Positions 33,901 through 55,965 of a DNA stretch of 64,000 bases are shown piece after piece (position 1 is the first letter of the stretch; the number at the start of each line of letters is the position of its first letter). Made by a program: the position numbers and the translations under genes. The notes under the pieces were generated by a model. It was not told where the DNA came from. It was given only the letters and a program-made list of their open reading frames with translations, and did not search any database. Source of the DNA: Pontibacter populi. Lineage in GTDB: Bacteria > Bacteroidota > Bacteroidia > Cytophagales > Hymenobacteraceae. The stretch spans positions 434,001 through 498,000 of the forward strand of contig NZ_JAHWXQ010000001.1 in NCBI RefSeq assembly GCF_019336435.1, given 5' to 3'.

Positions 33901-36900
33901 CCGCTACATTCGATACAGCAGGATTACTGATTCCTGATACTGCGGCACGTGACCAGCTGAAAGTAGTATTGGCTGTAGCACTCGTTGCACTATAGTTAAA
34001 TGCTGATCTGCTACAAACAGCCGCCGGCGTTAAAGTGCTTGAAAGTTTAGGAGTAGGATTAACGGTTATTGTAAATGACTGTTGAGTGGCTGAACAACCG
34101 TTTGCAGTTGCATTAACAGTTACAGTTGTAGTCACAGGATTACTACCAGTATTGGTTGCTGTATAGGTAGGAATATTACCCGTTCCGTTTGTCCCAAAAC
34201 CAACGTTTGCAGATGACGTCCAGCTTATAGTTGAACCAGCAACGCTGCTTGCAAAAGTAATTGCTTCCCCAGTGGCTCCGTTACAATAAGTCTTGCTAGC
34301 AATTGGAGTAATAACAGGAGTAGGTTTAACTGTATAAACAACATCATCAGATGTAGAGCATCCATTTGTAGTAACAGTCATGGTAAGTGTTACATTACCA
34401 AAACCAGTTATATCGACACGCTCTGCATATAGCCAGTCATAACCTATTCCAACTGTACCTATAGTACTATCTTTACTTTTAAGAGTCCATTTTACATCAA
34501 GACTTGTACCATTACCAACACCACTACCACTTCCTTGTCTGTTAATGAAAGTCACTCCTGAAGCTGCTTGACACACACTCTGGTCCGGACCTGCATTTGC
34601 AATTGGCATTGGATGTACTGTTAAGGTAACATCTCTGGAAGCAGTAGCACAACTCGCTACCGAGCTACTTGAAGATAACCGCATTGTAACGGTACCAACA
34701 CCAGCTACTGTTACTTGTGTACCCGTTGTGTTAGGGCTACTAACATTACTTACAGTTGCACCTCCGGTAGTTCCAACCACTGTCCATTGCGGCGTACCAT
34801 TTGCTACTGAACCAGTTAAATCGAAAACTGTAACGTTTCCGGTGCCGACACATTTAGCAGCCGGACTAGCCGATGCAGCCGAAACTACTGGCTGTGGGTT
34901 TACAGTTACTGTAGTGGCAGTTGCTGTAGTAGCTACGCAGGTTGTTGTATTGTTTGTAACACGTACAGTATAGTTTCCTGCTGCAGATGCAGTATAATCT
35001 TTCGCTGTCCCATCTGTTGTTATAGCAGTTCCATTTCGGAACCACTGATAAGAATAATCGCCTTGCGGAGCACTAAGTACCACGAATCCTCCCTGGCAGA
35101 AGGTAGTTGGGCCACCTGCCGTTATAGTTGTACTCGGTAATGGATCTACAGTAAGTGTAGTTGTACTCTCTGCAGTGTTACAAGCTGAAACAGAATTTGT
35201 TGTTCGCAATGTAATAGTTGCTGCGCCTGTACCGGTTGCCACAATAGTTGCAGTCGCTTGCCCTGTTGTAGTGTTGTAAACCGGGTTCTGAATCTGGAAG
35301 CTGGTATTTGATGAAATCCATTGTGCTGTACCACCAGAGAAAGTACCACTGACAGTGAAAGACGTTGAGTTCCCAGCTCCTATACATTTAGCCTGATCAG
35401 TACCTGTGATAGCTGCGGTTGGCTGAGGATTTACTGTCACATTTGTAGCCGTAGGAGTGGTGACGACACAACCAGTAGCGCTATTTGTTACTTCTACAGT
35501 ATAACCACCTGATTGAACTGCAGTGTATTGCTGACCGGTACCGGCAGTTGTAATTGCTGCTCCGTCTCTGAACCACTGATACGTATAACCAGCTCCCTGA
35601 GGGGCACTCAGTACTACAGAACCATCCTGGCAGAATGTGGTCGGGCCACCTGCGGTTATTGTTGCACTTGGTAAAGGATTAACGGTTAATGTTACAGCGC
35701 TATTGGCTGTAGAGCAACTTGCCGCATTGTTTGTAGTGCGTAATGTAATTGTGCTTGTACCAGTACCAGAAGCTGTAATAGTAGCAGTTGCTTTGCCAGT
35801 AGATGCATCATAAACAGGATTACTGATCACAAAGACTGGATTAGAGGTTAGCCATTGCGCTGTACCGCCTGAAAAATCACCTGTAACTGTAAAAACTGTT
35901 GTGTTTCCAGCACCAAGGCATTTTTGCTCGCTGCTGCTGGTTACAGTTGCAACTGGCTGTGGTAATACTGTTACCTTAACCTTAGCAGAAAGCTTAGAGC
36001 AGTCTTCAACTAAGTTAGTTACTTCAACCTGGTAATCACCACTTTCATTTGCAATGTATGTTTCACTTGTTTCATTAGGTATTTCAACGTCGTTTTTAAA
36101 CCACTTATAAGTATAAGGGTTATCAGTATCTGGGGATTTATTGGCACTTAATTTTAAGCTACCTCCCTGGCAAAAAGTGCTTGCTCCTTCTAAAGTAATA
36201 TTTGCCTCAGTAGGTAATTCCGCTACTATGACAGTTAATGTCTGAGAAGTTTGCTTACAACCGTTTTGGTTTGTAACTACTAAGTAATAATCACCTGAAG
36301 TAGTAGCAACATAATCTTTCGTTGTTTCTACCTCAGAATTATCGGCCGCATTAAACCAGGCATAAGTAAATGTATCGCCGGTTGGCAAAGCTGTGGGTAC
36401 CAACACAACCGAATTCCCTTCGCAGAATTGCAGCGGGCCTGTTGGGGTAATACTCACTGTCGGCAGTGGATTTACAGTTACTGTAACCGGCTCTGAAGAT
36501 GCGCTGATACAGCTGTTACCATCCGTTACCTGCACGGTAAAAGTACCGCTGGCGTCTACCGTTATAGATTGGGAAGTAGCACCATTGCTCCATAACCAGG
36601 AACTACCAGCGCTCGCTGTTAGCGTTACTGATCCTCCCTGGCAGAAAGTAGTAGGCCCTCCTGCTGTTATAGTTGCAACCGGCAATGGGTTAACTACAAC
36701 ATTTACTGGTGCTGACGCAGCACTTGTACATCCATTGGCATCTGTTACAATCACTGTAAAGCTGCCACCTGCACTAACAGTTATAGATTGTGTAGTAGCG
36801 CCGTTGCTCCATAACCAAGAGTCTCCTGCGCTGGCTTTAAGAGTTACAGACCCACCCTGGCAGAAAGTAGTAGGGCCACTTGGTGTTATAGTTGCTACTG

Positions 36901-39540: not shown

Positions 39541-42111
39541 ATGAGAAAACTGTACGCACTGGCTGTTACAGCACTTTTATTGTGTAGCCACTTAGCACAG
39601 GCACAGGCTACCCTTTCGTATTACCTGCCCAAAAATGTTACCTATGATAAAAACATACCTACTCCGCAGCAGGTGCTTGGCTACGAGGTTGGCGAATGGC
39701 ATATAAGCCACGATCAGCTGATAACTTACATGCGCTATATGGATCAGGTATCGGACAGGATAACGATAGCTGAGTATGGCCGCAGCCACGAGAACCGACC
39801 GCTGTACCTGCTCACCATCACCTCTCCTGATAATCATAAAAATATAGAGCAACTAAAGGCAGATCATAAGCAACTGACTGACCCTGATAACTCCGGTAAA
39901 CTGGATATAAAAAACATGCCGGCTGTAGTCTGGATGGGCTATAGCGTGCATGGCAATGAACCAAGCGGCAGCAATGCCGCCTTACTGGCCGTTTACCATC
40001 TGGCAGCTGCCCAGGGGCCAGAGATCGAGAAACTGTTAAAAGAAACTATAGTTCTGATTGACCCTGCTATTAACCCTGACGGCCTGAACCGTTTTGCCAG
40101 CTGGGTAAATACAAATCGTGGCAAAAACCTGGTAACAGACCCGAACAGCTCTGAGTTTAACGAAATATGGCCACGCAGCAGAACAAATCACTACTGGTTC
40201 GACCTTAACCGCGACTGGTTACCATTGCAGCATCCCGAATCGCAGGGCAGACTGGCGAAGTTCCACGAATGGAAGCCGAACCTGCTGACCGACCACCACG
40301 AAATGGGCACCAATGCCACCTTCTTTTTTCAGCCGGGTATACCAAGCCGCAACCACCCGCTTTCTCCGGAGAACACATTTAAACTGACACAGAAAATCGG
40401 TAATTACCACGCAAAAGCTTTGGATAAGATCGGTTCGCTGTACTATACCGAAGAAAGTTATGATGACTTTTACTATGGCAAAGGATCAACCTACCCGGAT
40501 GTGAATGGCGCCGTTGGTATTTTATTTGAACAGGCAAGTTCCCGTGGGCACGCGCAGGAAAGCATAAATGGGGTACTTACCTTCCCTTTCACCATTCGTA
40601 ACCAGTTTGTAACAACACTTTCATCGTTAGAGGCAGCCAACGCCATGCGCGAAGAACTGCTAACGCATCAGCGTGATTTCTACAAGCAGTCGCTGAATGA
40701 ATCTAAAAAGGTAGCTACCAAAGCGTATATTTTTGGCTCTGAGAAAGATCCTGCCCGCGCATATCACCTGGCTGAGATCATTCGCCAGCACCAGATCGCC
40801 ATCTATAAGCCAAAAGAAACTATAAAAGTAGGCAGCACAAACTATAGCCCGGAAAGCGCTTACATTGTGCCCCTGGAACAACCACAGTATAAACTGATTG
40901 AGGCCATGTTCGAGAAGCGTACTACGTTTAAAGACAGCCTTTTCTACGACATCTCTGCCTGGACCTTCCCGCTTGCTTTTGACCTGGAATACAATGTACT
41001 GAATGGCAAGAATTATAAACCAGCACAGCTTGGCGAAAAAGTAACTAACCCACAGATGCCGGCTGGTAAAATAACCGGGGGCCAGAGCACCTATGCCTAT
41101 GCTTTTGAGTGGACAGCATACTATGCCCCTCGTATACTTAACACCTTGTTTGACCACGGCATACAGGCCAAAGTAGCTACTGATACTTTTAAGGGCGGTG
41201 ATGGAAAAACGTTTGATTACGGAACTATACTGATTCCTGTAGCAGGCCAGCCTGTATCTGGCGCCGAACTATACAAGTTACTGGAAGAGGCTGCGCTTAA
41301 AAATGGCGTAGAAGTATTTGCCATGCAAACTGGCCTTACCTCAGCAGGTATAAAACTAGGTAGCCCGATGATGCTGAACCTGCGCAAACCCAGCATTATG
41401 TTACTTACCGGTGATGGCGTGAATAGCAACGATGCCGGCGAGGCCTGGCACCTGCTCGATAACCGTTTCGATATTAAAACCACGCTTATAACTACAGATA
41501 ATTTTAACCGCGCCAACCTAAGCCGCTACAATGTGTTGGTAATGGCCGACGGTTCTTATAACAGCATCTCTAAAGACAAACTCCGCGCCTGGGTACAGCA
41601 GGGAAATACAGTAATAGGCATGGGTGATGCAATTAAATGGCTGGCAGATAACGGCTTGAGCAACATCACCTTTAAAAACGTAAAAGACACACCTGCGGGC
41701 ATGCGAAAATCGTATGCTGACCTGGGCAATGAATCCGGAGCACAGGTAATTGGCGGCGCCATTTTCGAAACTACGCTTGACCTTACTCACCCGCTGGCTT
41801 ATGGTTATACCGACAATAAACTACCGATCTTCCGTAGCAACACTTTATTTGTAGAGCCATCTCAGAACCCTTATGCCAACCCAGTCATGTATACTGCTAA
41901 CCCGTTAATGGCTGGCTACATTTCAAAACAGAACCTGCAACAGATAAAAAACTCAGCTGCTGTTTCGGTTACAGCAGTTGGCGCAGGCAAAGTAGTGGCG
42001 ATGCCGGATAACCCGAACTTCAGGGCATTCTGGTATGGCACTAACAAACTTTTCTTGAATAGCATCTTTTTCGGCCAAATCATTAACAACCGTTCTGCCC
42101 GCACTGAATAA
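39541..42111 (+). CDS. Secreted M14 family zinc carboxypeptidase-like metallopeptidase, second copy
   Basis: 856 residues. Signal peptide 1-22 (ending AQAQ). The M14 domain carries HGNE (His137, Glu140), a third zinc ligand in LTDHHEMG and a candidate catalytic Glu in LFEQASS. The C-terminal half (about 600-856) is again amidotransferase-like, with RYNVLVMADGSY and GNTVIGMGDAIKW. It is clearly paralogous to the 27463-30021 protein over the whole length, with shared motifs (TPQQVLGYEVGE against TPEQFLGYKLGE), but diverged and lacking the charged insert. A terminator follows. Confidence 0.92.
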   Translation: MRKLYALAVTALLLCSHLAQAQATLSYYLPKNVTYDKNIPTPQQVLGYEVGEWHISHDQLITYMRYMDQVSDRITIAEYGRSHENRPLYLLTITSPDNHKNIEQLKADHKQLTDPDNSGKLDIKNMPAVVWMGYSVHGNEPSGSNAALLAVYHLAAAQGPEIEKLLKETIVLIDPAINPDGLNRFASWVNTNRGKNLVTDPNSSEFNEIWPRSRTNHYWFDLNRDWLPLQHPESQGRLAKFHEWKPNLLTDHHEMGTNATFFFQPGIPSRNHPLSPENTFKLTQKIGNYHAKALDKIGSLYYTEESYDDFYYGKGSTYPDVNGAVGILFEQASSRGHAQESINGVLTFPFTIRNQFVTTLSSLEAANAMREELLTHQRDFYKQSLNESKKVATKAYIFGSEKDPARAYHLAEIIRQHQIAIYKPKETIKVGSTNYSPESAYIVPLEQPQYKLIEAMFEKRTTFKDSLFYDISAWTFPLAFDLEYNVLNGKNYKPAQLGEKVTNPQMPAGKITGGQSTYAYAFEWTAYYAPRILNTLFDHGIQAKVATDTFKGGDGKTFDYGTILIPVAGQPVSGAELYKLLEEAALKNGVEVFAMQTGLTSAGIKLGSPMMLNLRKPSIMLLTGDGVNSNDAGEAWHLLDNRFDIKTTLITTDNFNRANLSRYNVLVMADGSYNSISKDKLRAWVQQGNTVIGMGDAIKWLADNGLSNITFKNVKDTPAGMRKSYADLGNESGAQVIGGAIFETTLDLTHPLAYGYTDNKLPIFRSNTLFVEPSQNPYANPVMYTANPLMAGYISKQNLQQIKNSAAVSVTAVGAGKVVAMPDNPNFRAFWYGTNKLFLNSIFFGQIINNRSARTE

Positions 42112-42571: not shown

Positions 42572-45500
42572 ATGAGAATACTTTTACCGCTGGTGTTCAC
42601 TTTATTGTTTTTAGGGTTTTTACCATCAGCTGCATTTTCGCAATGCCAGCCACCCTCTGTTACCTTACCTGCAGGCAAAGGCTATTGCGGGCCAAAAGCA
42701 ATCGCATTCAGCACCACTAATTCTGCACATACGCCAGTGTATTCTAACGATGAACTGACGTATTCCTGGAAACTGAACGGCGTTGTAGTAGCAACTACCG
42801 CTTACCCAACTATAAACTTCCCTACACCGGGTACGCACACCGTTACTGTTACGGTTACCAAGCGTTGTGGCAGGGATGAAATTGCAAGAGCCGAGGATAC
42901 ACAGCTTATAACTATAGAAGCAGTTCCGGCTGCACCTGATGTGGATAACCTGGCTGTATGTACAGGAAGCAATGCTACGCTATGGGTAAACAATGCAGAT
43001 CCCAACCTCATCTATAAATGGTATAACAAAAGTACAGGCGCATTACTGGTTTGGGGCACTTCTTATACCATGAACAACGCCAGCTATATGCAGGTAGAAG
43101 TAGAGGCTATAACAGCCAGCGGATGTACTTCTCCCCGTACTACAGCAACTATAACTTCTTCTTTAACTAACGGAAACGCAACCGTACTGAACGGAAACCA
43201 GGAAATATGTGCCGGCACCAGGCCGGGTACTATAGATGGCAATGCACCGCAGAACATGACCTTTCAGTGGCTGCAAAGCACAACAGGCGCCGGCTCCGGA
43301 TATAGCCCAATTGCATCAGCTACCGATAAAAGTTACTCTCCTCCTCCGCTTTACCAAACTACATGGTACAAAAGGGTTGCCTACAATGGCGGTTGCGGCG
43401 AAGAAACCAACCCGGTAAAAGTAACTGTAACAGCTATACCTCCTACACCAATCGTTTCGGATAAACTGGTATGCTACGGCGAGCGCGCTATGTTTGTGGT
43501 GGCCAACAGCGACGGAAAAACGATCTATAACTGGTATGCCACGGCCACCAGCACCACAATGCTGGGTACCGGCCCAAGTTTTATCACCCCACAACCCGTA
43601 ACAGGTCCGGTAACCTATTATGTAGAGGCATCTACCACAGCACAAACCCAGTGCTACAACCTTACCCGAATAGCGGTGAATGCCAATGCAACACCGGCAA
43701 TTGCCAACAACAGCATTTCGGCAAACCAGGCCATGTGTACTGGCGGCAAACCACAGCCTTTAACAGGTACAACCCCAACAGGCGGTGGCGGCGGTTACAT
43801 TTACCAGTGGCAGCAAAGCACAGATGGCAATACGTTTACAGATGTGCAGGGAGCCAATGCAAAAGACTTCGCCCCCGCTTCACTTAAAGTTACTACCTGG
43901 TTCCGTAGAACTATAAAAGCAGCCAGCAGCTGCCCGATGAGCATCAGTAACATCGTTGTAGTAACGGTTACCCCAATGCCCGCAACTATAGATATTGATG
44001 ATCCGATGATCTGTTATGGTTCGCCGGCATCTATAGTTGTAACCAACCCCGAACCTGATTTTACCTACCGTTGGTACGATGTAGCAGAGGGAGGCACCCT
44101 GCTTGCCACGGGCACAACCTATACCACCACACCACTTACATCAAACAAAACATTTTATGTAGAAGCTACTTCGGATGCCGGGTGTTATAGTGTGCGCCGC
44201 TCGGTGGAAGTAACGGTTACTACTTTACCTGATGCACCAACTGCAGCCAATGTTACTATCTGCGAAGGCACCAATGCTATACTGGCCGTAAAACCAACCG
44301 ATGCCGCTATCTTTTACAGATGGTATGACAGCAACAACACACTGGTAGCTACGGGTATAAACTATAGCACTCCTCCGCTAACTGAAAACACCACCTATTA
44401 TGTAGAGGCCGTAACAAAAGCTTCGCCGGGCTGTGCCAGTCCTAAAGTAGCCGTAGAAGTTACTGTAACTCCAAAAATAGACGGAAATATTATCACCTCT
44501 GACCAGGTGCTCTGCAGTGGCGCCAAGCCTGCTTCCCTGCAAGGGTCCGTACCAACCGGCGGTGGCGGTGGCTACACTTACCAGTGGGAATACAGCATAG
44601 ATGGAAGTTTATTCACTACAATAACAGGAGCTACAGGAATACACTTTGCACCCGGCGCCCTGACAGCCACCACCTGGTATCGCCGTAAGGTGAACGCAAC
44701 AGGCAGCTGCAAGACTTCTGTAAGTAACCTGGTTAAAATCACTGTAAACCAATTACCGGGCGCTCCTACAGCCACAAACACTTCTATCTGTACTGGTTCC
44801 GGAACTACACTGGCTGTAAACAGCCCGGATGCGAATCTGACCTACAAATGGTACAGCACGGCTACAGGTGGTTCAGCCATTGCTACAGGCAGCACCTATA
44901 ATACAGGTATCCTGACATCAGGAAAAGATTATTATATAGAGGCTACTTCTGCAACTGGTTGTGTTAGCCCGGCCCGTGGCAAAGTATCTGTTACGGTCAT
45001 CCCGCTACCTGCCACCCCGGAAGCCGACAATGCCTCGGTTTGCGCAGGTGCTACGGTAACGTTAAAAGTACTGGCCCCTGATGTCAACCTGGTTTACCGC
45101 TGGTATAACGATGATACGGACGGAACACTGCTTGCAACCGGAACCAACTACACCACCGAAGCCCTGACTGAAAGCTCTATTTTTTATGTAGAAGCATCAA
45201 CCGTTGAGGGTTGCACCAGTTCTGACAGAAAGCCGGTTTACGTGAACGTAACACCATTGCCAGCTATCCCGGATGTATCCAACACAACGATTTGCTCTGG
45301 CGATGCGGCGGTGTTATTTGTTAACAACCCGGATCCTACGGCAACTTACCACTGGTACCTGGGCGGCTCATTGCTTGCTTCGGGTGTTACCTTTACTACT
45401 GATATTCTTGCCTATAGTACCACCTACCATGTAGAGGCTGTTTCGAATACATCCACTGCCTGCCCGAGCCCTGCACGTCGTGCAGTGGTAGTTACTGTTA

Positions 45501-48500
45501 CGCCGAACATTGCCAACAATAACATTAGCAGTGCGCAAACTATCTGCAGCGGCGGCACACCATCTACGCTAACAGGCACGCAGCCAACCGGCGGAAGCGG
45601 AACTTATACCTACCAGTGGGAAAGAAGCGAAGACGGCACAAACTTCTCGAGTATCGCCGGAGCCGTTAATTCTACTTACAGCCCGGGTTCGCTAACTATA
45701 ACTACCTGGTTCAGAAGAAAAGTAAAAGCAGCTACAGGCTCGTGCCCGGAACATGTAAGCACCCCGGTAAAAGTGACCGTATCTCCTCAGCCAACTACCC
45801 CAACTGCTCTTAACACAACGGTTTGTAATGGTGAAAGAGCACAGTTAAGCATTTCAACACCAGATCCATCGTTAACTTATAAGTGGTACAGTACCGCAAC
45901 AGGCGGAAGCCCGGTAGGTGTTGGCCCAACGTTACAAACAGAAACGCTTACAGCTACTACTACTTATTATGTGGATGCTACCAGCACAACTGGCTGCACC
46001 AGCAACAGAAGAGCCGTAACTGCTACTGTAAGACCACTTCCTGAAATGCCGCAGGCGCTGGATAAAACCATCTGCGCAGGAAGCAGCACAACATTATCTG
46101 TAACCAACCCGAATGCAACCCTGGCTTATCGCTGGTTCAACGCAAGCGGCGACCAAGTTGCTACCGGTACTACTTTCACAACTGCCGCCCTTCAAACAAC
46201 CACTACTTATTATGTAGAAGCATCAACAGTAACCAATCCTGTTTGTGCCAGCCCACGCAAAGCGGTAGTTGTATCTGTAACTCCAATCCCGGGGATGCCG
46301 ACTGCTGAAAGTGTCGCCATCTGTACGGGAGGTTCGGCTGTGCTTACAGTTAGTTCTCCTGATGTGTCGTTTACTTATAACTGGTATACTTCTGCTACAG
46401 GTGGTTCTGCCATCGGCACGGGCACTTCGTTCAACACCGGCACGCTTACTTCAGCCAGATCATTCTACCTGGAAGCTGTAACAGCTGCAGGTTGTGTGAG
46501 CGCACGTTCTAAGGTTGATGTTACCGTAACACCACTTCCGGCCACACCGACAGCAGACAATGTATCGATCTGTGCCGGAGCGCCTGCAACCCTTACTGTA
46601 AAAGACCCTGCTGCCAATGTTTCGTACAGATGGTACACCGCGGCAACCGGTGGTACTTTACTGGCAACCGGAAACAGTTATGCTATCGGTTCTGTAGCAA
46701 CTACTACTACCTATTATATAGAGGCGGTAACAACAGGCGGTTGCGCGAGCACGTCACGTGGAACAGTTACGGTACAGGTTACGCCCTTGCCGGCTACGCC
46801 AAATGCTGATAATGCTACTGTTTGTGCGGGCAACAGCACTACGCTTTGGGTGAAGACACCTGAGCCTGGCCTGATCTACCGCTGGTACCAGGATGGTGTG
46901 CAGGTTGCAACAGGCATTTCTTACACTACCGAAGTGCTGAACTATAGCGCCACTTACCAGCTGGAGGCAGTTACAAATAACAGCAATGCCTGTGTCAGCG
47001 CCTCGCGCCGCACCGTTAGCGTTACCGTTACGCCGGCCATTACCAACAACATCATCTCTGCAGACCAGAACATTTGCAGCGGTACGGCACCGGCAACCTT
47101 TACCGGAACATTACCAGCCGGTGATGGAAGTGATTTCTCTTACCAATGGGAGCGCAGCGAGGACGGGGTTAACTTCTCGATCATCGCAAACGCAACTGGC
47201 CAGTCCTATACATCGGGAGCTTTAAATGCGACAAGCTGGTTCAGAAGAAGAGTAAAGTCGAACAATAACTGCCCTGAACATGTCAGCAACGTTGTTAAAG
47301 TAACTATAAACCAACTACCTGCTACCCCACTTGCTGATAATGCCACTACCTGCGAAGGAAGCACCGCTACGTTAAGTGTTAAAGATCCGAACGCTGCATA
47401 CACCTACCGTTGGTACACAGTAGCTACCGGAGGCAGCATTCTTGGAGTTGGCACTACCCTGACTACACCTGCTGTAAATGCTAACACTACCTATTATGTT
47501 GAGGCTTCTAACGCGACAGGCTGTTTAAGCCCACGCAGAGCAGTTACTGTATCGGTAACACCATTGCCGGCAGCACCAGTAGTAAGAGACCGCAGCATTT
47601 GCGTGAACGAGCAGGCCATTCTGTCGGTAAGTTCACCGAACGCTACCCTGATCTACCGTTGGTATAACAACGCCGGCAACCTGCTCGCAACCGGCCCTAC
47701 GTATACTACCGATGCCCTATCTGCCAACACTGTTTATTATGTAGATGCCGCAACTATAGCAACGCCATCTTGTGTGAGTAACCGCAGCACGGTTATAGTT
47801 AGCGTAACGCCTTTACCGGCAACGCCACAAGCAACTGATGTAACCGTATGCTCTGGCAGCACTGCAGATCTTGCCGTGAAAGATGTTGATCCGAACCTGA
47901 CCTATAAGTGGTACAGTACGGCGACCGGAGGCACGGCACTGCATACAGGATCTACTTACAGAACTACAACCTTAACCTCAGGCAGAACATATTACATTGA
48001 AGCCGTAAACGCGGCAGGCTGCATAAGCCCGTCACGCAAAGCGGTATCTGTAAATGTTATTCCAATTCCGTCTGCTCCGATAGTAAATAACACTACCATT
48101 TGTGCAGGAAGCAGCGCTACCCTAACTATAGCAGCACCGGATGCCTCGCTTACCTACCACTGGTATGATAATGCCGGTAACTTACTGGGTTCCGGTACTT
48201 CGTTCAGCACAGGCGCACTTGGCAGCACTACCAACTATAGCGTAGAAGCTGTTGCCCTTGCTACCACCGGTTGTAACAGCACACGCCGTACAGTAACGGT
48301 AACCGTAACGCCATTGCCAGCTACACCGGAAGTAAATCAGCCTACCATTTGCGCCGGTGGTACAGCAACCCTGGTTGTTCAAAACCCGGTGCCGTCTGTA
48401 AACTATAACTGGTATGATGGAAACGAGAACCTGATTACGACCGGAACATCGTTCACGACAGGCGCACTTGCCGAGAGCACACTTTATTACGTGGAAGCGG

Positions 48501-51500
48501 TAACCAGTAACGGTTGCGCCAGCCCGGCCAAAGAAGTAGTAACAGTAAAAGTACTGCAGCCGGTAAGCAACAACGCTATTGCAGCTGATCAGACGATTTG
48601 TTATGCGAGCACTCCAACTACCCTTAACGGATCCGAGCCTCTGGCCGGAGGCGCAAACTATAGTTACCTATGGGAGAAAAGCGAAGATGGCCTGAATTTT
48701 ACAACTATAACCGGAGCCACCACGCAACACTATAGCCCGGAAGCACTTACGACCGATACCTGGTTCAGAAGAAAAGTAGTAACCGACGGCCCTTGTAAAG
48801 TAAACAGCAGCAACGTAGTGAAGATAACAGTAACACCACTTCCTGCTGTACCAACTGCTGCCAACGCTACGATCTGTGCCGGTTCATCTGCCAGCTTAAG
48901 CATAAACGGTACAGTAGCAACCTATACATACCGCTGGTTTGATGCCGCAAGTGGTGGAACGGTGCTGATATCCGGCTCTACGTTTACTACCCCGGAATTA
49001 CAGGCAACTACTACCTACTATGTAGAGGCAATTAACGAAGCCGGATGTGTCAGCCCAAGAAGAGCTGTAACCGTAACCGTAACGCCAATGCCTGGTGCGC
49101 CAGTAGTTGCCAACAAAACCATTTGTTCAGGCAGCCCGGCTGTTCTAAGCGTTAGCGCCCCGGATCAGTCACTGGTTTACAAATGGTATAACAGCATCGG
49201 TGAGCAGGTAGCTTCTGGCGCTACTTACAATACCGGCAGTTTAACCACAACTACAACTTATTATGTAGAAGCAGCCACTACAAGCGCTCCGTTCTGTGTA
49301 AGCAGCCGCACCACCGTTATAGTTACCGTAACCGACCTGCCAACAATACCAGTAGTTGAGAATACCAGCGTTTGCGCGGGTGAGGCAGCTATGCTTTCTG
49401 TGCTTGTGGTGGATCCGGCTTATACTTATAAGTGGTATACTTCAGCAACAGGCGGAACAGTAGTTGGCTCAGGTGCTACTTATAATACCGGTGCTTTAAC
49501 ATCAGACAGAGCCTATTATGTAGAGGCTGTTTCAGCGGCCGGTTGTGCCAGCCAGCGAGCGAAAATTGCTGTAACTGTAACACCACTCCCTGCTACACCT
49601 TCCGCAGATAATGTTAGCATTTGCGCAGGTCAGCCGGCAACACTGGTTGTAAACACTCCGGATGCAAACCTGTCTTACAGATGGTATAATGCGGCTACCG
49701 ATGGTACCCTGCTTGCAACCGGCGATACGTACACAACCGGAAGCTTATCAGTTAGTGAGACCTACTATGTGGAAGCGGTAACAGCAACAGGCTGCGCCAG
49801 CACAACCCGCAAAGCAGTAACTGTAAATGTAACGCCACTACCAGCCACCCCAGTAACCGAAAATGCTTCCATCTGCGCGGGCAGCAGCACTACGCTGTGG
49901 GTGAAAAACCCGGATCCTACGGTATACTATAACTGGTATAGCGGCGGCGCGTTAGTTGGCACAGGCATTTCATATGCTACCGGCGTGCTGAACTATAGCG
50001 CTACGTATTATGTGGAGGCAGTTAGCAACACAGGCACCGCCTGCAGCAGCGCTTCACGCAGTACGGTAACAGTAACGGTAACACCTGCTATCTCTAACAA
50101 CTTTATCTCTGCAGACCAGACCATCTGTAGCGGCAGTTCGCCAACTGCCCTTACTGGCTCGTTGCCAAATGGCGGCGGCGGAAACTATAGTTACCAGTGG
50201 GAGCGCAGCGAAGACGGCGTAAACTTTACCGCCATCAGCAATGCCACTACCCAGAACTATAGCCCGAACGCACTTAACATTACGACCTGGTACAGAAGAA
50301 AAGTAAAAGCAGTTGGCCCATGCGGCGAGCAGGTTAGTAACACGATCCAGGTAACTGTTCAGCCGATACCAGCTACTCCGGTTGCCGACAATGCAACGAT
50401 ATGTGAAGGTGCTACGGCTACCTTGAGCGTTAAAGATGTAACTCCTGGCTATACCTATCGCTGGTACACGACACCAACCGGCGGAAGTGCGATCGTAACA
50501 GGAACATCTTTCACAACTACACCGCTTGAGAGCACTACTACTTACTATGTGGAGGCAGTAAATGCAACAGGTTGTATCAGCACTAGAAGAACTGTTTCGG
50601 TAACGGTAATGCCTTTACCGGAAGCCCCGATGGTAGCAGACCAGAACATCTGCGCCGGCGAACAGGCGATTCTAACAGTAGAGAACCAGACAGCCAGCCT
50701 GACCTACCGCTGGTACGATAACAATGGTACTTTACTTGCAACCGGAACAAACTATACCACAGCCATCCTTACCAGCAACGCTACTTATTATGTAGAGGCT
50801 GTTACATCTGGTGCGTTAAGCTGTGCCAGTGGCCGAACTATAGTTGCTGTAAATGTAGCTGCAAGACCTGCCACTCCGCTTGCTGACAATGCCAGTGTTT
50901 GTGCAGGATCATCAGCACAGCTTTCTGTAAAGAGTATCATTCCGGGCATCACATACAAGTGGTACACAGTAGCTACAGGTGGCACACCTGTGTTTATTGG
51001 TTCTGCTTATACTACGGCTGCTCTTACTTCAAACAGAACATATTATGTAGAAGCTTCAACAGCGTCGGGTTGCACCAGCGAAAGCCGCAAGGCAGTAACG
51101 GTAACAGTTATTCAGCAGCCAGCTATGCCGGTTGTTGCCGACCAGACCATCTGCCAAGGCAGCGAAGTGGTACTGACTGTTTCTAACCCGGATGCCAGCC
51201 TGATGTACCGCTGGTATAACCAGGGCGGAACAGCCTTAGCAACCGGCACATCTTACACCGCACGTGCCCTGACAGCAAATACTATTTTCTATGTAGAGGC
51301 GGTAACTACTACTTCTCCTGGTTGTACAAGTGCCCGCGAAACGGTGTATGTAACCGTAACGCCATCGCCGGCAACACCACTTGCTGATGATGCCAAGATC
51401 TGTGCAGGCTCAACGGCTACCCTTTATGTGAAGAATGCGACTCCGGCGGTAGTATACAAATGGTACGATGATACGGAAACGTTACTCCACACCGGTACCA

Positions 51501-54500
51501 CCTTCACCACTCCTGTACTTGCTGCTGACGCTATTTACTATGTGGAGGCAAGCTCAGGTGCAGGCTGCGTAAATCCGAATCGTATGGTGGTGACGGTTAA
51601 TGTTGCCCAGCCGATCGTTAACAACACGATCAGCGGAAACCAGACCATTTGCAGCGGCACCAACCCAAGCACACTTATCGGCTATGAGGTGATGAGCACC
51701 GATGGAACTGTTACTTACCAGTGGGAAAGCAGCGAGGATGGTATCAACTATAACATCATCCCGACGGCAACTGGCAAGAACTATAAACCAGCTACCACTT
51801 TTGTAACCACCTGGTACAGAAGAACGGCAAGTGTGGAGAATGGAACCTGCCCGGCCCAGAAAAGCAACATCGTAAAAATCACTGTTATCTCTGCCCCGGC
51901 AACGCCATTGGCCAGCAACATTACAATCTGTGCCGGCTCAAGAGCTACCCTATCGGTAACATCTCCTGAGTTAGGTTATACCTACCGTTGGTTCAGTGTA
52001 GCAAGCGGTGGCAATAGCCTTGGCACGGGAATAACATTTACAGCAGATGGTATGCAGGCGGAAACGACCTACTATGTAGAGGCCGTGAATGCTGGTGGCT
52101 GCGTGAGTGCCCGTAAAGCAGTAACCGTATATGTTACCCCATTGCCAGCCATACCACAGGCAGCAGATCAGGTGATCTGTTACAATGAGAAAACGACGCT
52201 AAGTGTTACCAACCCGGATGTGAAACTGAACTATAGATGGTTCGACGGAAACGGAATACTTGTAGCAGATGGCTCCTCATTTACAACAGCTAACCTGAAA
52301 CAGAACACCATGTTCTACGTGGAGGCTTACACCACAACCACACAGGCCTGCGCCAGCCAGCGCAAAGCAGTTATGGTAAGTGTAATGCAACTGCCAACAG
52401 CCCCGGAAGTAGATAACCGTGCAATTTGCGAAGGCAGCAGCACAACGTTAACTGTGAAGCAGGCAAGTGCAGGCTTAACCTACAAATGGTACAGTGCTGC
52501 AACCGGCGGCTTAGCCCTGGCAACAGGAACAACCTACGAAACCGGCTCACTTACTTCAGACAGAACGTACTACGTAGAAGCAACCAACACTTCCGGTTGT
52601 GTAAGCGAAAGAACTGCTGTTACTGTAAGCATTTCCGCACTGCCGGCTACCCCGATCGCATCTAACCAGCAGATTTGTGCAGGCGAAACGGTAACGCTAC
52701 GTGTGTCTCAGCCGGATGCAACGTTGAACTATAGATGGTTCAGCGAATCGGGCAAGTTACTGGCAACCGGAAATACACACTCTATCTCTGGATTAACGGC
52801 CAGCACTACGTACTATGTAGAGGCTGTAAATGCAGCAGGCTGTATCAGTCCGAAGCGCAAGTCAGTGGTAGTAAGTGTTACACAATTGCCGGCTACACCT
52901 TCCGTATCGAACGCTTCGATCTGCTCCGGCGAAAGAGTAACCTTACATGTGAAGAATCCTGACCCGGCAGTAGAGTATAGATGGTACAACGATGCCGCTG
53001 GTACAAACCTGATCGGTTCCGGTATCTCTTACACTTCTGAAGATGCCCTGTTCACAACCAGATCATACTATGTAGAGGCAGTGAATACCTCAGGTTGCAG
53101 CAGCCCGACAAGAGCGCAGGCTATAGTTTCGGTAACGACTAAACCTGGTGCACCTGTAGTGGAGGATGCTACGATCTGCAGCGGCGGAACAGCGAAACTG
53201 GAGATTATACAGCCGGACCCTGCCCTTGTTTATAAGTGGTACGATGCGAACGGAACGATGCTCGGTAATGGTACAAGTTATACTACATTCCCGCTATCTT
53301 CTCAGGCCACGTTCTATGTAAGAGCTAACACAACTTCACCAACTGCCTGTGAAGGGCCGAGTGTGGCGGTAACAGTTCGCATTATGTCGTCGCTGGCTAA
53401 CAATACAGTTACAGGTAACCAGACCATTTGCAGTGCCGCCACGCCGGCTCCATTGTCGGGTTCGGTGCCTACAGGTGGTGGAAATGCTGCCCTGTATTAC
53501 CAGTGGGAACGCAGCGAGGACGGTGTAAACTTTGCAAGTATAGTTGGCGCTTACGCCCAGGAATATGCGCCGGGTGCCCTTACGCAGAACACCTGGTTCA
53601 GAAGAGTAGTGCGTGCAGCAGGCCCTTGCGGTGAAAGCGTGAGCAATGCGGTTATGGTAACGGTTACTCCACTACCTGCTACGCCACTTGCTGATGATGT
53701 GACGATTTGCGCTGGCAGCACTGCTACCCTGCGCATCAAAAATCCATCAACAGGAGCTTCCAACATAACCTACCGTTGGTATTACACTGCTTCCGGCGGA
53801 ACATCTATTGCATCGGGCATCAACTTCACAACGCAGCCGCTTTATACCAACTCTACTTATTATGTAGAGGCCATAAACGCGACAGGTTGTGCAAGTAGCG
53901 CCCGCCGTGCGGTAACTATAATTGTGAACCAACTGGTGACAGACAACACCATCAGCTCGGCGCAGCAACTTTGTACTGGTGGTGTACCGGCAGCCTTAAC
54001 AGGTTCGGTAGCCTTCCAGCAGTCAGAGAATTACACGTACCAGTGGCAGCAAAGCCCTGACGGCATGAACTACATGAACATTTCAGGCGCTACGGGCCAG
54101 CATTACGCACCAACCCAGGCACTGACCAAAAATGTATGGTACCGTCGTGTTGTGCAGATCTCAGGCCCTTGCGAAGACCACATCAGTAATGCCGTGAAGA
54201 TAGAAGTTGTTCCGCTGCCAACATTGCCAACTATAGCCTCTGCTTCGGTTTGCCCGGGTGGCAGTGTTACCCTGCAGGCGACAGGCGTATTGCCTGGCAC
54301 AAGACTGGAGTGGTTCGATGCTCCGAAGGGTGGAACTTACCTGGCAGAAGGCACAACCCTAACAGTTACACCATATTCTACTACCACTTACTGGGTGCAG
54401 GCTGTGAACAGCAACAATTGCGAAAGCAGTGCCCGCAGAGAAGTAAAAGTGACAGTAGTGGAACCTGTGGCAAATGTAAGTGGCGATGTGACCATTATGC

Positions 54501-54952
54501 AGGGCAAAGCTACCAAGCTGGTTGCTACTGGCGGTGCTACCTATAGTTGGTCTCCGGCTACTGGCCTGAGCGATGCAACAAGTGCCACGCCAATTGCCAA
54601 ACCGGAAGTAACAACAACTTACACGGTAACTATAACAACCGCTGAAGGCTGTACAGCTTCTGCTTCGGTGACGGTAAATGTGGTGCCGGCTATCGTTCCG
54701 ATGAACGCCATGACACCAAATGGCGATGGTATAAATGATGTGTTCCATGTAGAGAACCTGGAGCTTTACCCGGATTGCCGCGTGGAGATCTTCACCCGTT
54801 GGGGCGAAAAGATATTCGAAAGCAAAGGCTACTCAGAACCATGGAACGGTATGCGCAACGGCAAGCAAATGCCACTTGGCGCTTACTATTACATCATTTA
54901 CCTGTCCAGAGACGAAGCACCTATTTCAGGAAGTATAACAATTATTAAGTAA
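42572..54952 (+). CDS. Giant Ig-like repeat protein with T9SS type B (CHU_C) sorting domain
   Basis: About 4126 residues from the ATG at 42572 (a TTG two codons earlier is possible). Signal peptide to about 24 (AAFSQ). A PKD-like first domain is followed by about 35 Ig-like modules of about 83 residues. Each has a cysteine start such as ICAGSSATL, a YRWY or YKWY core, TYYVEAV and a second Cys. About ten larger modules of about 95 residues (NNxIS..QTICSG, YQWERSEDG, TWFRRKV) are interspersed. The C-terminal 90 residues form a type B sorting domain: TPNGDGINDVF, RVEIFTRWGEKIFES and a final GSITIIK. Secreted by T9SS and probably kept at the surface. Adhesion or gliding-related function is inference. 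The stop overlaps the SprF-like gene. Confidence 0.94.
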   Translation: MRILLPLVFTLLFLGFLPSAAFSQCQPPSVTLPAGKGYCGPKAIAFSTTNSAHTPVYSNDELTYSWKLNGVVVATTAYPTINFPTPGTHTVTVTVTKRCGRDEIARAEDTQLITIEAVPAAPDVDNLAVCTGSNATLWVNNADPNLIYKWYNKSTGALLVWGTSYTMNNASYMQVEVEAITASGCTSPRTTATITSSLTNGNATVLNGNQEICAGTRPGTIDGNAPQNMTFQWLQSTTGAGSGYSPIASATDKSYSPPPLYQTTWYKRVAYNGGCGEETNPVKVTVTAIPPTPIVSDKLVCYGERAMFVVANSDGKTIYNWYATATSTTMLGTGPSFITPQPVTGPVTYYVEASTTAQTQCYNLTRIAVNANATPAIANNSISANQAMCTGGKPQPLTGTTPTGGGGGYIYQWQQSTDGNTFTDVQGANAKDFAPASLKVTTWFRRTIKAASSCPMSISNIVVVTVTPMPATIDIDDPMICYGSPASIVVTNPEPDFTYRWYDVAEGGTLLATGTTYTTTPLTSNKTFYVEATSDAGCYSVRRSVEVTVTTLPDAPTAANVTICEGTNAILAVKPTDAAIFYRWYDSNNTLVATGINYSTPPLTENTTYYVEAVTKASPGCASPKVAVEVTVTPKIDGNIITSDQVLCSGAKPASLQGSVPTGGGGGYTYQWEYSIDGSLFTTITGATGIHFAPGALTATTWYRRKVNATGSCKTSVSNLVKITVNQLPGAPTATNTSICTGSGTTLAVNSPDANLTYKWYSTATGGSAIATGSTYNTGILTSGKDYYIEATSATGCVSPARGKVSVTVIPLPATPEADNASVCAGATVTLKVLAPDVNLVYRWYNDDTDGTLLATGTNYTTEALTESSIFYVEASTVEGCTSSDRKPVYVNVTPLPAIPDVSNTTICSGDAAVLFVNNPDPTATYHWYLGGSLLASGVTFTTDILAYSTTYHVEAVSNTSTACPSPARRAVVVTVTPNIANNNISSAQTICSGGTPSTLTGTQPTGGSGTYTYQWERSEDGTNFSSIAGAVNSTYSPGSLTITTWFRRKVKAATGSCPEHVSTPVKVTVSPQPTTPTALNTTVCNGERAQLSISTPDPSLTYKWYSTATGGSPVGVGPTLQTETLTATTTYYVDATSTTGCTSNRRAVTATVRPLPEMPQALDKTICAGSSTTLSVTNPNATLAYRWFNASGDQVATGTTFTTAALQTTTTYYVEASTVTNPVCASPRKAVVVSVTPIPGMPTAESVAICTGGSAVLTVSSPDVSFTYNWYTSATGGSAIGTGTSFNTGTLTSARSFYLEAVTAAGCVSARSKVDVTVTPLPATPTADNVSICAGAPATLTVKDPAANVSYRWYTAATGGTLLATGNSYAIGSVATTTTYYIEAVTTGGCASTSRGTVTVQVTPLPATPNADNATVCAGNSTTLWVKTPEPGLIYRWYQDGVQVATGISYTTEVLNYSATYQLEAVTNNSNACVSASRRTVSVTVTPAITNNIISADQNICSGTAPATFTGTLPAGDGSDFSYQWERSEDGVNFSIIANATGQSYTSGALNATSWFRRRVKSNNNCPEHVSNVVKVTINQLPATPLADNATTCEGSTATLSVKDPNAAYTYRWYTVATGGSILGVGTTLTTPAVNANTTYYVEASNATGCLSPRRAVTVSVTPLPAAPVVRDRSICVNEQAILSVSSPNATLIYRWYNNAGNLLATGPTYTTDALSANTVYYVDAATIATPSCVSNRSTVIVSVTPLPATPQATDVTVCSGSTADLAVKDVDPNLTYKWYSTATGGTALHTGSTYRTTTLTSGRTYYIEAVNAAGCISPSRKAVSVNVIPIPSAPIVNNTTICAGSSATLTIAAPDASLTYHWYDNAGNLLGSGTSFSTGALGSTTNYSVEAVALATTGCNSTRRTVTVTVTPLPATPEVNQPTICAGGTATLVVQNPVPSVNYNWYDGNENLITTGTSFTTGALAESTLYYVEAVTSNGCASPAKEVVTVKVLQPVSNNAIAADQTICYASTPTTLNGSEPLAGGANYSYLWEKSEDGLNFTTITGATTQHYSPEALTTDTWFRRKVVTDGPCKVNSSNVVKITVTPLPAVPTAANATICAGSSASLSINGTVATYTYRWFDAASGGTVLISGSTFTTPELQATTTYYVEAINEAGCVSPRRAVTVTVTPMPGAPVVANKTICSGSPAVLSVSAPDQSLVYKWYNSIGEQVASGATYNTGSLTTTTTYYVEAATTSAPFCVSSRTTVIVTVTDLPTIPVVENTSVCAGEAAMLSVLVVDPAYTYKWYTSATGGTVVGSGATYNTGALTSDRAYYVEAVSAAGCASQRAKIAVTVTPLPATPSADNVSICAGQPATLVVNTPDANLSYRWYNAATDGTLLATGDTYTTGSLSVSETYYVEAVTATGCASTTRKAVTVNVTPLPATPVTENASICAGSSTTLWVKNPDPTVYYNWYSGGALVGTGISYATGVLNYSATYYVEAVSNTGTACSSASRSTVTVTVTPAISNNFISADQTICSGSSPTALTGSLPNGGGGNYSYQWERSEDGVNFTAISNATTQNYSPNALNITTWYRRKVKAVGPCGEQVSNTIQVTVQPIPATPVADNATICEGATATLSVKDVTPGYTYRWYTTPTGGSAIVTGTSFTTTPLESTTTYYVEAVNATGCISTRRTVSVTVMPLPEAPMVADQNICAGEQAILTVENQTASLTYRWYDNNGTLLATGTNYTTAILTSNATYYVEAVTSGALSCASGRTIVAVNVAARPATPLADNASVCAGSSAQLSVKSIIPGITYKWYTVATGGTPVFIGSAYTTAALTSNRTYYVEASTASGCTSESRKAVTVTVIQQPAMPVVADQTICQGSEVVLTVSNPDASLMYRWYNQGGTALATGTSYTARALTANTIFYVEAVTTTSPGCTSARETVYVTVTPSPATPLADDAKICAGSTATLYVKNATPAVVYKWYDDTETLLHTGTTFTTPVLAADAIYYVEASSGAGCVNPNRMVVTVNVAQPIVNNTISGNQTICSGTNPSTLIGYEVMSTDGTVTYQWESSEDGINYNIIPTATGKNYKPATTFVTTWYRRTASVENGTCPAQKSNIVKITVISAPATPLASNITICAGSRATLSVTSPELGYTYRWFSVASGGNSLGTGITFTADGMQAETTYYVEAVNAGGCVSARKAVTVYVTPLPAIPQAADQVICYNEKTTLSVTNPDVKLNYRWFDGNGILVADGSSFTTANLKQNTMFYVEAYTTTTQACASQRKAVMVSVMQLPTAPEVDNRAICEGSSTTLTVKQASAGLTYKWYSAATGGLALATGTTYETGSLTSDRTYYVEATNTSGCVSERTAVTVSISALPATPIASNQQICAGETVTLRVSQPDATLNYRWFSESGKLLATGNTHSISGLTASTTYYVEAVNAAGCISPKRKSVVVSVTQLPATPSVSNASICSGERVTLHVKNPDPAVEYRWYNDAAGTNLIGSGISYTSEDALFTTRSYYVEAVNTSGCSSPTRAQAIVSVTTKPGAPVVEDATICSGGTAKLEIIQPDPALVYKWYDANGTMLGNGTSYTTFPLSSQATFYVRANTTSPTACEGPSVAVTVRIMSSLANNTVTGNQTICSAATPAPLSGSVPTGGGNAALYYQWERSEDGVNFASIVGAYAQEYAPGALTQNTWFRRVVRAAGPCGESVSNAVMVTVTPLPATPLADDVTICAGSTATLRIKNPSTGASNITYRWYYTASGGTSIASGINFTTQPLYTNSTYYVEAINATGCASSARRAVTIIVNQLVTDNTISSAQQLCTGGVPAALTGSVAFQQSENYTYQWQQSPDGMNYMNISGATGQHYAPTQALTKNVWYRRVVQISGPCEDHISNAVKIEVVPLPTLPTIASASVCPGGSVTLQATGVLPGTRLEWFDAPKGGTYLAEGTTLTVTPYSTTTYWVQAVNSNNCESSARREVKVTVVEPVANVSGDVTIMQGKATKLVATGGATYSWSPATGLSDATSATPIAKPEVTTTYTVTITTAEGCTASASVTVNVVPAIVPMNAMTPNGDGINDVFHVENLELYPDCRVEIFTRWGEKIFESKGYSEPWNGMRNGKQMPLGAYYYIIYLSRDEAPISGSITIIK
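45515..51619 (+). repeat. Higher-order repeat: four 1.53-kb blocks of six Ig modules, paired as two 3.05-kb units
   Basis: The start of the 95-residue module (Asn-Asn codons) falls at 45515, 47045, 48569, 50096 and 51620. The periods are therefore 1530, 1524, 1527 and 1524 bp. Each block holds one large and five small modules. Modules 4 and 5 of blocks 1 and 3 resemble each other more than those of blocks 2 and 4, and the reverse, giving a 3051-3054-bp super-repeat. Confidence 0.82.
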
Positions 54953-55965
54953 TGCCAGCTATGAGACGTATTTTAACTATAGTAGTGGCACTGGTTGCCG
55001 CAGCAGGCACTGCACTGGCGCAACAGCGCCCTCAGTACACACAGTACGCTTTAAACAATTACCTTACAAACCCAGCAGTAGGCGGCATAGAAAGCTATGC
55101 CGACCTGCGCACCAGTTATCGCGGGCAGTGGGCAGGCGTCGAAGGCGCACCGGAAACCATGTATGTCACTTTCCATGGCTCTATTGGCAACCCGGACAAT
55201 GCTAAAACATCACCAAAATCCAGGAAGGCGAATAAGTATGGTTTCTCCAGCCGCAACAGCTATAAAAAAGCCGTGCCACACCACGGTGTAGGGGCCGTTG
55301 TGCAGGTTGATAAAGCAGGTCTTTTGCGTACCTCAACCTTTAACGCGACTTATGCTTATCACCAGCCTATTACCCGCTACTTAACTTTATCAAGCGGACT
55401 GGCAGGTGGCTTAACGCAGTATAATGTGGATGTGAACCGCGCCAAAGTACTCGACCCAAGCGACCCTTATCTGGTTGGCGGTAACATGTCGGCTAGTAAA
55501 GTAGATGTAGGTGTTGGGTTATGGTTATACAGTCCTGATTTCTATGTTGGATTATCCGGTATGCAGTTACTGAAAAGCAAGCAGGAAATTGTAACCACTG
55601 ACGACCCGGCCATGAGCCTGCAACCGCACTTTTACGGAACAGCCGGCATCCGCTTCCAGACATCCAGCAACCTGGCTGTTGTGCCATCTGTCATGGTAAA
55701 AGCAACCGGCTCAGCCACTCCTGCGGTAGATCTAAACCTGCGTGCCTTGTATGCACAGTATGTCTGGGGAGGCATGTCGTATCGTCACAATGATGCCTGG
55801 GCAGTTATGGCCGGAGTTAACCTGAATCATTTATTCGATGTGGGCTACTCTTACGAAATAGCCACCTCCAGCATGAGCCGTGTATCCGCAGGAAGCCATG
55901 AGGTTGTAGTTGGTTTTAAACTGAACAATACCAGTAGAGTGCTCTGCCCGCAGTGGGTTTGGTAA
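54952..55965 (+). CDS. PorP/SprF family outer-membrane protein, partner of the type B T9SS substrate
   Basis: 337 residues. Signal peptide about 1-24 (ALAQQ). The family start QRPQYTQYALNNYLTNPAVGGI is followed by YRGQWAGVEGAPET, and then a beta-rich barrel-like sequence to a C-terminal GFKLNN strand. PorP/SprF proteins are usually encoded directly after T9SS type B substrates and are needed for their attachment or secretion. Here the ATG overlaps the giant gene's stop as TAATG, so the two are probably translated together. A second ATG nine bases on would also retain the signal peptide. Confidence 0.94.
   Translation: MPAMRRILTIVVALVAAAGTALAQQRPQYTQYALNNYLTNPAVGGIESYADLRTSYRGQWAGVEGAPETMYVTFHGSIGNPDNAKTSPKSRKANKYGFSSRNSYKKAVPHHGVGAVVQVDKAGLLRTSTFNATYAYHQPITRYLTLSSGLAGGLTQYNVDVNRAKVLDPSDPYLVGGNMSASKVDVGVGLWLYSPDFYVGLSGMQLLKSKQEIVTTDDPAMSLQPHFYGTAGIRFQTSSNLAVVPSVMVKATGSATPAVDLNLRALYAQYVWGGMSYRHNDAWAVMAGVNLNHLFDVGYSYEIATSSMSRVSAGSHEVVVGFKLNNTSRVLCPQWVW

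Follow-up and report, generated by a model that had tools for sequence, protein, structure and literature searches.

The window analyzed here is a stretch of 64,000 nucleotides (nt) from Pontibacter populi (assembly GCF_019336435.1, contig NZ_JAHWXQ010000001.1, positions 434,001 to 498,000), and our subject within it is a giant gene at 42572-54952 on the forward strand, which encodes a protein of 4126 amino acids (aa) ending in a type B sorting domain of the type IX secretion system (T9SS). The protein is filled by immunoglobulin (Ig)-like domains in which a block of six domains is repeated in tandem, and orthologs in other Pontibacter species have from two to six copies of that block. An earlier note on this DNA had described the nested repeat and proposed a history for it.

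Anatomy of the domain array

The open reading frame (ORF) as listed begins with a TTG codon at 42566, and the hydrophobic leader read from the translation starts with the ATG at 42572. Tandem Repeats Finder, with a longest period of 500 bases, saw no 509-aa block, so profile hidden Markov models (HMMs) were used. By these, the protein holds two kinds of Ig-like domain, one of about 89 aa that we call A (10 copies) and one of about 83 aa that we call B (35 copies). The B modules correspond to the Pfam family Ig_7 (PF19081), which matches 36 stretches over the whole protein with 2390 bits. The same family matches 52 of 77 A domains at E <= 0.01 (77 of the 113 A domains were given), the stretch at 45515-45781 being without a match. 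Both kinds of domain have invariant cysteines at two places in the alignment.

From the N-terminus the order of domains is B, A-B, A-BB and A-BBB, then four times A-BBBBB, then A-BBBBBB, A-B and A-B, with a short, weakly matching stretch between the last A-B and the sorting domain. All of these units are on the forward strand. The N-terminal short units (42917-44482, by profile HMM) are B at 42917, A-B at 43175 and A-B-B at 43706. The full block, A-B1-B2-B3-B4-B5 and about 509 aa long, is present in four tandem copies, namely block 1 (45515-47044), block 2 (47045-48568), block 3 (48569-50095) and block 4 (50096-51619). Together with the A domain at 51620, their starts give periods of 1530, 1524, 1527 and 1524 bp, and in this the profile HMM agrees with the earlier note. 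Blocks 1 and 3 are of an odd type (A-1-2-3-4-5; types a and d of the block tree described below), and blocks 2 and 4 are of an even type (A-1-2-3-E4-E5; types c and e).

Ahead of block 1 lies block 0 (44483-45514), a partial block of A and modules 3, 4 and 5, as the note had also stated. In comparisons with other species, its module 03 is nearest class 3 in 11 of 12, while 04 and 05 are nearest classes 4 and 5 in all 12. The array also continues past the blocks noted earlier. A fifth, terminal block T (51620-53398) has six B modules (A-1-2-3-4-T5-T6), of which T5 clusters with the position-5 modules in the tree of modules, and it is followed by two A-B units (53399-54457), the first B being nearest class 1 in 11 of 12 species. 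The CHU_C/TIGR04131 type B sorting domain at 54701-54943 (residues 4044-4125 of 4126; PF13585 at E 4.2e-23, TIGR04131 at E 6e-17) resembles the C-terminus of GhpA, the grappling hook protein A of Aureispira.

Block number and module position among congeners

Among the matches listed, orthologs of the giant gene are found in at least 12 of 50 Pontibacter genomes, including the window's own (G000); we counted as orthologs the genomes whose listed match starts at residue 1 of the N-terminal query. G004 and G007 were excluded, as their domain order differs and their N-terminal match is weaker (46% and 39%). The frame is open in all 12 orthologs, and in all 12 the runs of B modules read 1, 1, 2, 3, [5]n, 6, 1, 1, with three B modules in the first partial block, six in the last block, and constant flanks. 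The number n of full blocks is 2 in G060, G033, G018 and G071, 3 in G065 and G061, 4 in G000, G031, G027 and G008, 5 in G019 and 6 in G032, and every one of the 41 full blocks consists of A and five B modules and is 507-513 aa long. One-block and two-block differences both occur. Assembly collapse as the source of the differing block numbers can be ruled out, as the longest exact repeat inside the gene is only 18-50 nt over the 12 genes (22 nt in the window gene). The pattern suggests that giant proteins of this kind grow and shrink by whole blocks.

The B-runs at the start of the array (42917-47044) read 1, 1, 2, 3 and 5 in 12 of 12 orthologs; the likeness to the Fibonacci series is probably a coincidence, although the conservation is real. 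The weaker homolog in G007 (L029) has, at about residues 1046-3060, an apparent super-repeat of 11 domains and about 960 aa made of the same A and B kinds. Its identity at lag 11 is 42.3, versus 22-36 at other lags up to 24, and lag 11 is the best-hit lag for 8 of 37 domains, but lag 4 is so likewise for 8.

Within the window gene, position-matched B modules are alike across blocks, as the earlier note had claimed. Over positions 1-5 of five blocks, same-position pairs share 51.4% aa identity (50 pairs), compared with 45.1% for adjacent modules (20 pairs), 46.9% for other pairs in the same block (30) and 45.9% for the remaining 200. In a within-block shuffle of blocks 1-4 the observed value was 51.7 against 46.4 +- 1.0 and was reached in none of 5000 shuffles; the outcome was alike in four further sets (G000 with T, G019, G032 and G008). 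The note had offered clustering by position, as opposed to clustering of neighbors, as the way to check its proposal. Among 205 modules, 138 have their closest paralogue within the gene at the position that they occupy themselves, only 2 have it next to them in the same block and 65 have it elsewhere, and the position label changes 4 times by Fitch counting, versus at least 111 times in 300 shuffles. A tree of 385 modules from the 12 species recovers positions 1, 2 and 3 as clades that mix odd, even and terminal blocks (local supports 0.92, 0.965 and 0.892). The smaller tree of the window's 35 modules groups 1_5-3_5-0_5 and 1_4-3_4-0_4 (block, then position), and it brings together the five modules of position 2, among which 4_4, p_2 and q_2 also fall.

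The six-domain hierarchy and a twelve-domain periodicity are likewise borne out. For the 20 B modules in blocks 1-4, mean identity peaks at lag 10 (56.7%); it is 50.1% at lag 5 and 46.4% at lag 15, and every other lag up to 14 gives 43-50%. In G032 it is 61.7 at lag 10 and 50.5 at lag 5. Over all 45 domains, the commonest distance to the best match is 12 domains (15 of 45), and a distance of 6 is found for 7 of 45. These best-match distances are from module-by-module identity, a blastp self-comparison having given no off-diagonal segments.

Two kinds of block tail and the history of the array

According to the earlier note, modules 4 and 5 alternate, with blocks 1 and 3 sharing one form and blocks 2 and 4 another. 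For blocks 1 and 3 this is seen in identity (70% for 1_4-3_4 and 66% for 1_5-3_5, where other pairs at these positions share 43-56%). Blocks 2 and 4, at 48% and 55%, are not clearly above the others by identity, although their loop lengths are common to both. The strings that had been cited as shared are mostly literal (NVSICAG, VLNYSATY and TPAI in blocks 1 and 3, QPV/QPI in blocks 2 and 4), but the shared form of TGTLLATG is GTLLATG, and the TxxGC insertion fits module 4_4 while 2_4 reads ATTGC.

Loop lengths sort the 41 full blocks of all species into 25 of the odd type (O) and 16 of the even type (E); the script that read them gave no value or a spurious one for some, and from their tails and other modules G019_5, G027_2, G061_3 and G032_6 were set by eye as E, and G008_3, G032_3, G032_5 and G071_1 as O. 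All 12 orthologs have an odd first block, and 11 of them close their series of full blocks with an even one. The resulting strings are OEOE (G000, G031, G027), OEE (G065), OE (G060, G033, G018), OO (G071), OOE (G061), OOOE (G008), OOEOE (G019) and OOOOOE (G032). Strict alternation is thus found in 3 of the 8 arrays with at least three blocks, all three from the window's clade; the three OE arrays fit it trivially, and G071 does not.

In the 385-module tree, O5 modules group with 05 and T5 (0.966) and E5 modules with p2 (0.898), while 11 of the 16 E4 modules group with T6 and q2 (0.776) and the other 5 adjoin the position-2 clade. From these placements, the tail of an even-type block seems to be made of two different modules, and not of diverged odd-type ones. 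Mean identity puts E4 closest to position 2 in 14 of 16 cases and is divided over E5. E4 may simply have come from position 2, but the tree has 11 of 16 with T6 and q2.

A tree of the 41 blocks (IQ-TREE) shows recurring types, a (the first block), b, c, d or d', and e (the last). The series is a-c-d-e in G000, G031 and G027, a-c-e in G065, a-e in G060, G033 and G018, a-a-e in G061, a-b-(c?)-d-e in G019, a-b-d'-e in G008 and a-b-a-b-d'-e in G032, and is unclear in G071. Types d and d' are apart in the tree and may be one slot. Types c and e form a clade with the third block of G019 (G019_3; ultrafast bootstrap, UFBoot, 100), in which G019_3 is basal (69), yet block 2 is the best match for every one of its five B modules; a clade of b, c and e is supported at 78. 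This tree does not place d clearly with respect to a. Block 3 (d) is joined by an ortholog from G019 with UFBoot 100, and that genome lies outside the window's clade in both the locus tree and the rpoB tree. Therefore G065 most simply lost block d, and any duplication of an odd-even pair either predates that split or passed between species. On the same block series, G033, G018 and G060 may have lost c and d, and G032 and G061 look like gains. An origin of the window's OEOE by loss of b from an abcde ancestor would fit G019, but we do not claim it; G019_3 branches at the base of c and e, and b may have been gained in the group of G008, G019 and G032.

The history proposed in the earlier note was duplication of a six-module block followed by duplication of the twelve-module odd-even pair, which gives OEOE directly. 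Whole-block aa identity is highest for blocks 1-3 (57%) and 2-4 (56%), the other pairs being at 50-53%, and all five B positions favor the pairing 1-3|2-4 by summed identity. With gap columns counted as a state, 28 alignment columns of the window gene support that pairing, against 7 for 1-2|3-4 and 3 for 1-4|2-3, and the counts in the same order are 26, 8 and 4 in G031 and 25, 7 and 6 in G027. The clade holding c and e, the dominance of lag 12 and the a-b-a-b series of G032 also speak for duplication of a pair. The A domains, however, favor 1-2|3-4, and 20 of the 28 columns are in modules 4-5, where they make up 20 of 23 informative columns, versus 8 of 15 in A to module 3. Parity shows only weakly in the rest of the block, and most of the signal reflects the two kinds of block tail. 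Blocks 1, 3, 4 and 5 of G019 show weaker parity (22, 13 and 11), and the four blocks of G008 show none (8, 12 and 9). A simple block-then-pair history is not supported as proposed by the comparison with congeners, which have 2-6 blocks, show one-block differences and alternate strictly in only three of eight cases; the block tree gives no clear grouping of d with a, and in G019, with its OOEOE, loss of one odd block would also produce OEOE. The hierarchy and the periodicity from which the proposal started stand, but we consider duplication of a pair, as the specific last step, somewhat unlikely.

A second way to obtain the likeness of blocks 1 and 3 at modules 4-5 is an old in-register conversion of the block tail, laid over duplications of single blocks. 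Nucleotide identity between blocks 1 and 3 is 66-67% in modules 4-5 versus 55-60% in A to module 3, and a younger tract of the same sort is found at the same two-block distance in G032. There, a tract of some 550 nt, running from module 3 into the beginning of module 5, is 93% identical in register between blocks 2 and 4, which share 67% outside it; none of 300 permutations was as good, and a 50-nt exact repeat with a spacing of 1021 aa sits at the same place. This pattern of identity is best explained by gene conversion or by a partial exchange of recent date. In the scan as a whole, 3 of 59 within-gene block pairs passed the threshold (at most 3 of 300 permutations), where about 0.6 would be expected by chance. 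The window's blocks 1 and 3 are not among these three, and a conversion between 1 and 3 leaves unexplained the other tail type common to 2 and 4. We consider old tail conversion, too, somewhat unlikely.

Orthologous blocks were also compared for selection, and the ratio of nonsynonymous to synonymous substitution (dN/dS) is 0.03-0.10 in 11 of 11 comparisons (0.03-0.07 against G031, 0.06-0.10 against G027 and 0.05-0.08 against G065, silent sites being near saturation in the latter two). By this measure the blocks are under strong purifying selection, and the coding constraint that the earlier note had supposed is supported.

The trees of the G008 locus (L026) conflict. By the N-terminal part of the gene, G008 belongs with G019 and G032; by the C-terminal part and by PorP, it belongs with G061 (support 100 each). 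This suggests that part of the gene was exchanged between species.

Secretion, proposed role and comparison with known systems

Directly downstream, at 54952-55965 on the forward strand, is a gene of the PorP/SprF family (PF11751, E 1.1e-66), and a PorP/SprF gene adjoins the giant gene in all 11 other orthologous loci. It lies upstream of the giant in G019 and G032 (L025 and L027), and the other ten loci differ from these. The listed ORF opens with an ATG (54952-54963) that overlaps the stop codon of the giant gene and is not present in G027; a second ATG nine bases on, kept in the six closest relatives (G031, G065, G027, G060, G033 and G018), is the likelier start. A phmmer search with the PorP neighbor gave no solved relative at E <= 0.001. 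SprA (TIGR04189) is found above cut-off in the same genome. Type B cargo has been reported to need cognate PorP/SprF-like shuttles for secretion, often encoded nearby (PMC12618676), and SprB is described as binding a PorP-like partner, SprF (PMC9143113). By analogy, similar binding might occur between the Pontibacter giant and its PorP/SprF neighbor.

A second giant gene, at 30977-38794 on the reverse strand (2605 aa), has Ig_7, Ig_2 and PKD-like domains and a Por_Secre_tail sorting domain, and contains a 219-bp repeat in three copies at 36461-37117. It is flanked by genes for M14 zinc carboxypeptidases at 27463-30021 (reverse) and 39541-42111 (forward). Of the 11 other orthologous loci, 8 have within their flank a counterpart of the carboxypeptidase gene that precedes the array.

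AlphaFold2 models give confident beta-sandwich domains, with a mean predicted local distance difference test score (pLDDT) of 92.5 for the A domain and 91.5 for the block; the relative orientation of domains in the block is uncertain (predicted template modeling score, pTM, 0.42). The A alignment used for structure held 77 of 113 A domains (G031, G027, G033 and G018 left out), and the block alignment held all 41 blocks. The A-domain profile matches the gliding adhesin RemA of Flavobacterium johnsoniae (8gl6_D, E 7.9e-35) and, weakly, RemZ (E 4e-4), but not GhpA at E <= 1. The block profile matches GhpA (E 6.4e-281), as does the sorting-domain region with its C-terminus (E 4.3e-8), and the five best Foldseek matches to the block model are pieces of GhpA (9flp, TMq 0.70 over 627 columns). 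When the A domain was the only query, Foldseek returned just generic Ig domains (best E 0.012, none at E <= 0.001), and no solved relative came up at E <= 0.001 in a phmmer search with one B module.

Taking these observations together, we think it probable that the gene encodes a T9SS giant with an A-B5 super-repeat whose length evolves by whole blocks, and in which module position is kept by selection and conversion. The product would be a giant type B surface protein linked to its PorP/SprF neighbor, its stalk a chain of Ig-like domains that each hold a conserved pair of cysteines. It would be secreted by the T9SS and then anchored through the adjacent PorP/SprF protein, and it may act as a long filament, probably adhesive, or as a scaffold in which an A domain recurs every six domains. 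Rare recombination events, in register and within the gene, would lengthen or shorten the array by whole blocks, while the identity of each position would be maintained by purifying selection with occasional in-register gene conversion. Of this account, the data show directly the anatomy and the differences of block number among species, of which we are highly confident, as well as the clustering by position, the uniform size of the blocks, a single conversion-like tract and the low dN/dS. We infer that unequal exchange is the cause of block gain and loss. The case for in-register recombination behind the block differences is good but historical, because the blocks of the window gene share just 55-61% nt identity and no exact repeat longer than 22 nt.

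Several points weigh against this account. No exchange in progress was seen. Two of the three pairs that passed the tract scan are weak (G061; 64 v 53% and 69 v 54%). Position 4 forms no clade in the 385-module tree, with the 25 O4 modules in two places, and the 35-module tree is poorly supported, with 4_5 near position 1 and 1_1 with 4_3, as would be expected of sequences this short that share about 50% identity. The conflicting locus trees further indicate that transfer between species may add to the block differences.

A more specific role would be that of the Aureispira grappling hook, in which a GhpA-type oligomer catches other cells; a heptamer and prey capture are reported for GhpA (PMC11205867). 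The matches of the block, the sorting domain and the Foldseek model to GhpA favor such a role. GhpA is, however, rich in Ig_7-like domains, so that other Ig_7 arrays would be expected to match it too. No A-type domain is detected in it by profile at E <= 1, and no part of the Pontibacter protein was identified as serving oligomerization; we regard this role as quite unlikely. Convergence of each slot, by selection on loop lengths and without any block duplication, would fit the recurrence of slot-specific loop lengths across species (the script having no value for part of the modules) and the strong purifying selection, but clustering by position covers whole modules and gene length differs by whole blocks, and we give it very little credence. 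A neutral, satellite-like expansion has in its favor only the form of its hierarchy, and we dismiss it on the dN/dS values, the open frame in 12 of 12 orthologs and the constant flanks. Satellite higher-order repeats have highly homogeneous units. The likeness that the earlier note saw to them extends to their logic and not to their homogeneity, given the 55-61% nt identity of the window's blocks.

The A domains might also be docking or self-assembly stations, one for every six Ig domains, so that the number of blocks (2-6) sets the reach of a molecular ruler in quanta. This idea is unlikely to hold, but if it is true, the station spacing of five B modules would be kept by selection, much as the period of the thick filament may keep the spacing in titin. 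The best-known examples of Ig-like super-repeats are the giant proteins of muscle, in which a unit size dictated by the period of a partner is hard to tell from one due only to the mechanics of duplication. The bacterial case offers a natural series of 2, 3, 4, 5 and 6 units in congeners with constant flanks and an inferable order of block differences, with one visible conversion-like tract, and the family has relatives with solved structures (GhpA and RemA). The congener series, the constant flanks and the solved relatives make the question of unit size one that can be tested by genetics and electron microscopy, and in a simple organism.

In open PubMed Central articles, by titles and the beginnings of abstracts, we found nothing on super-repeats in T9SS Ig_7 proteins among the matches listed. 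Nebulin is not bacterial, and its modules are short, actin-binding and not Ig-like. Domain repeats in general are reported to expand often by several domains at once, in the middle of the array, and nebulin mainly by a unit of fixed domain number, seven (PMC1553488). Among bacterial proteins, GhpA has the similar C-terminus, a long Ig_7-like array and giant size, and RemA is matched by the A-domain profile; RemA is described as having a lectin domain (PMC11205867), whereas no lectin family is among the Pfam matches of the Pontibacter giant at E <= 0.01. The biofilm-associated protein (BAP) of Acinetobacter is likewise a giant of the cell surface; its units, of 70-104 aa, include Ig-like repeats, and the repeats vary in type and number. 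Its Ig-like family is another, the variation is among isolates, and no fixed six-domain block is reported in the relevant passages of that source (PMC4647330). The A-band of titin is described as having two kinds of beta-sandwich domain (Ig and fibronectin type III, FnIII) in a fixed order, with same-slot domains more alike, slot-specific linkers, duplication of whole super-repeats and end repeats set apart; titin is a eukaryotic muscle protein whose unit may reflect the thick-filament period (PMC10665226), whereas the Pontibacter protein belongs to a bacterium, carries a T9SS signal and has six domains in each unit, the number of units ranging from 2 to 6 in congeners. The Pontibacter gene thus fits the titin and nebulin kind of super-repeat, and differs from it in its bacterial T9SS setting, its two types of block tail and its series of unit numbers.

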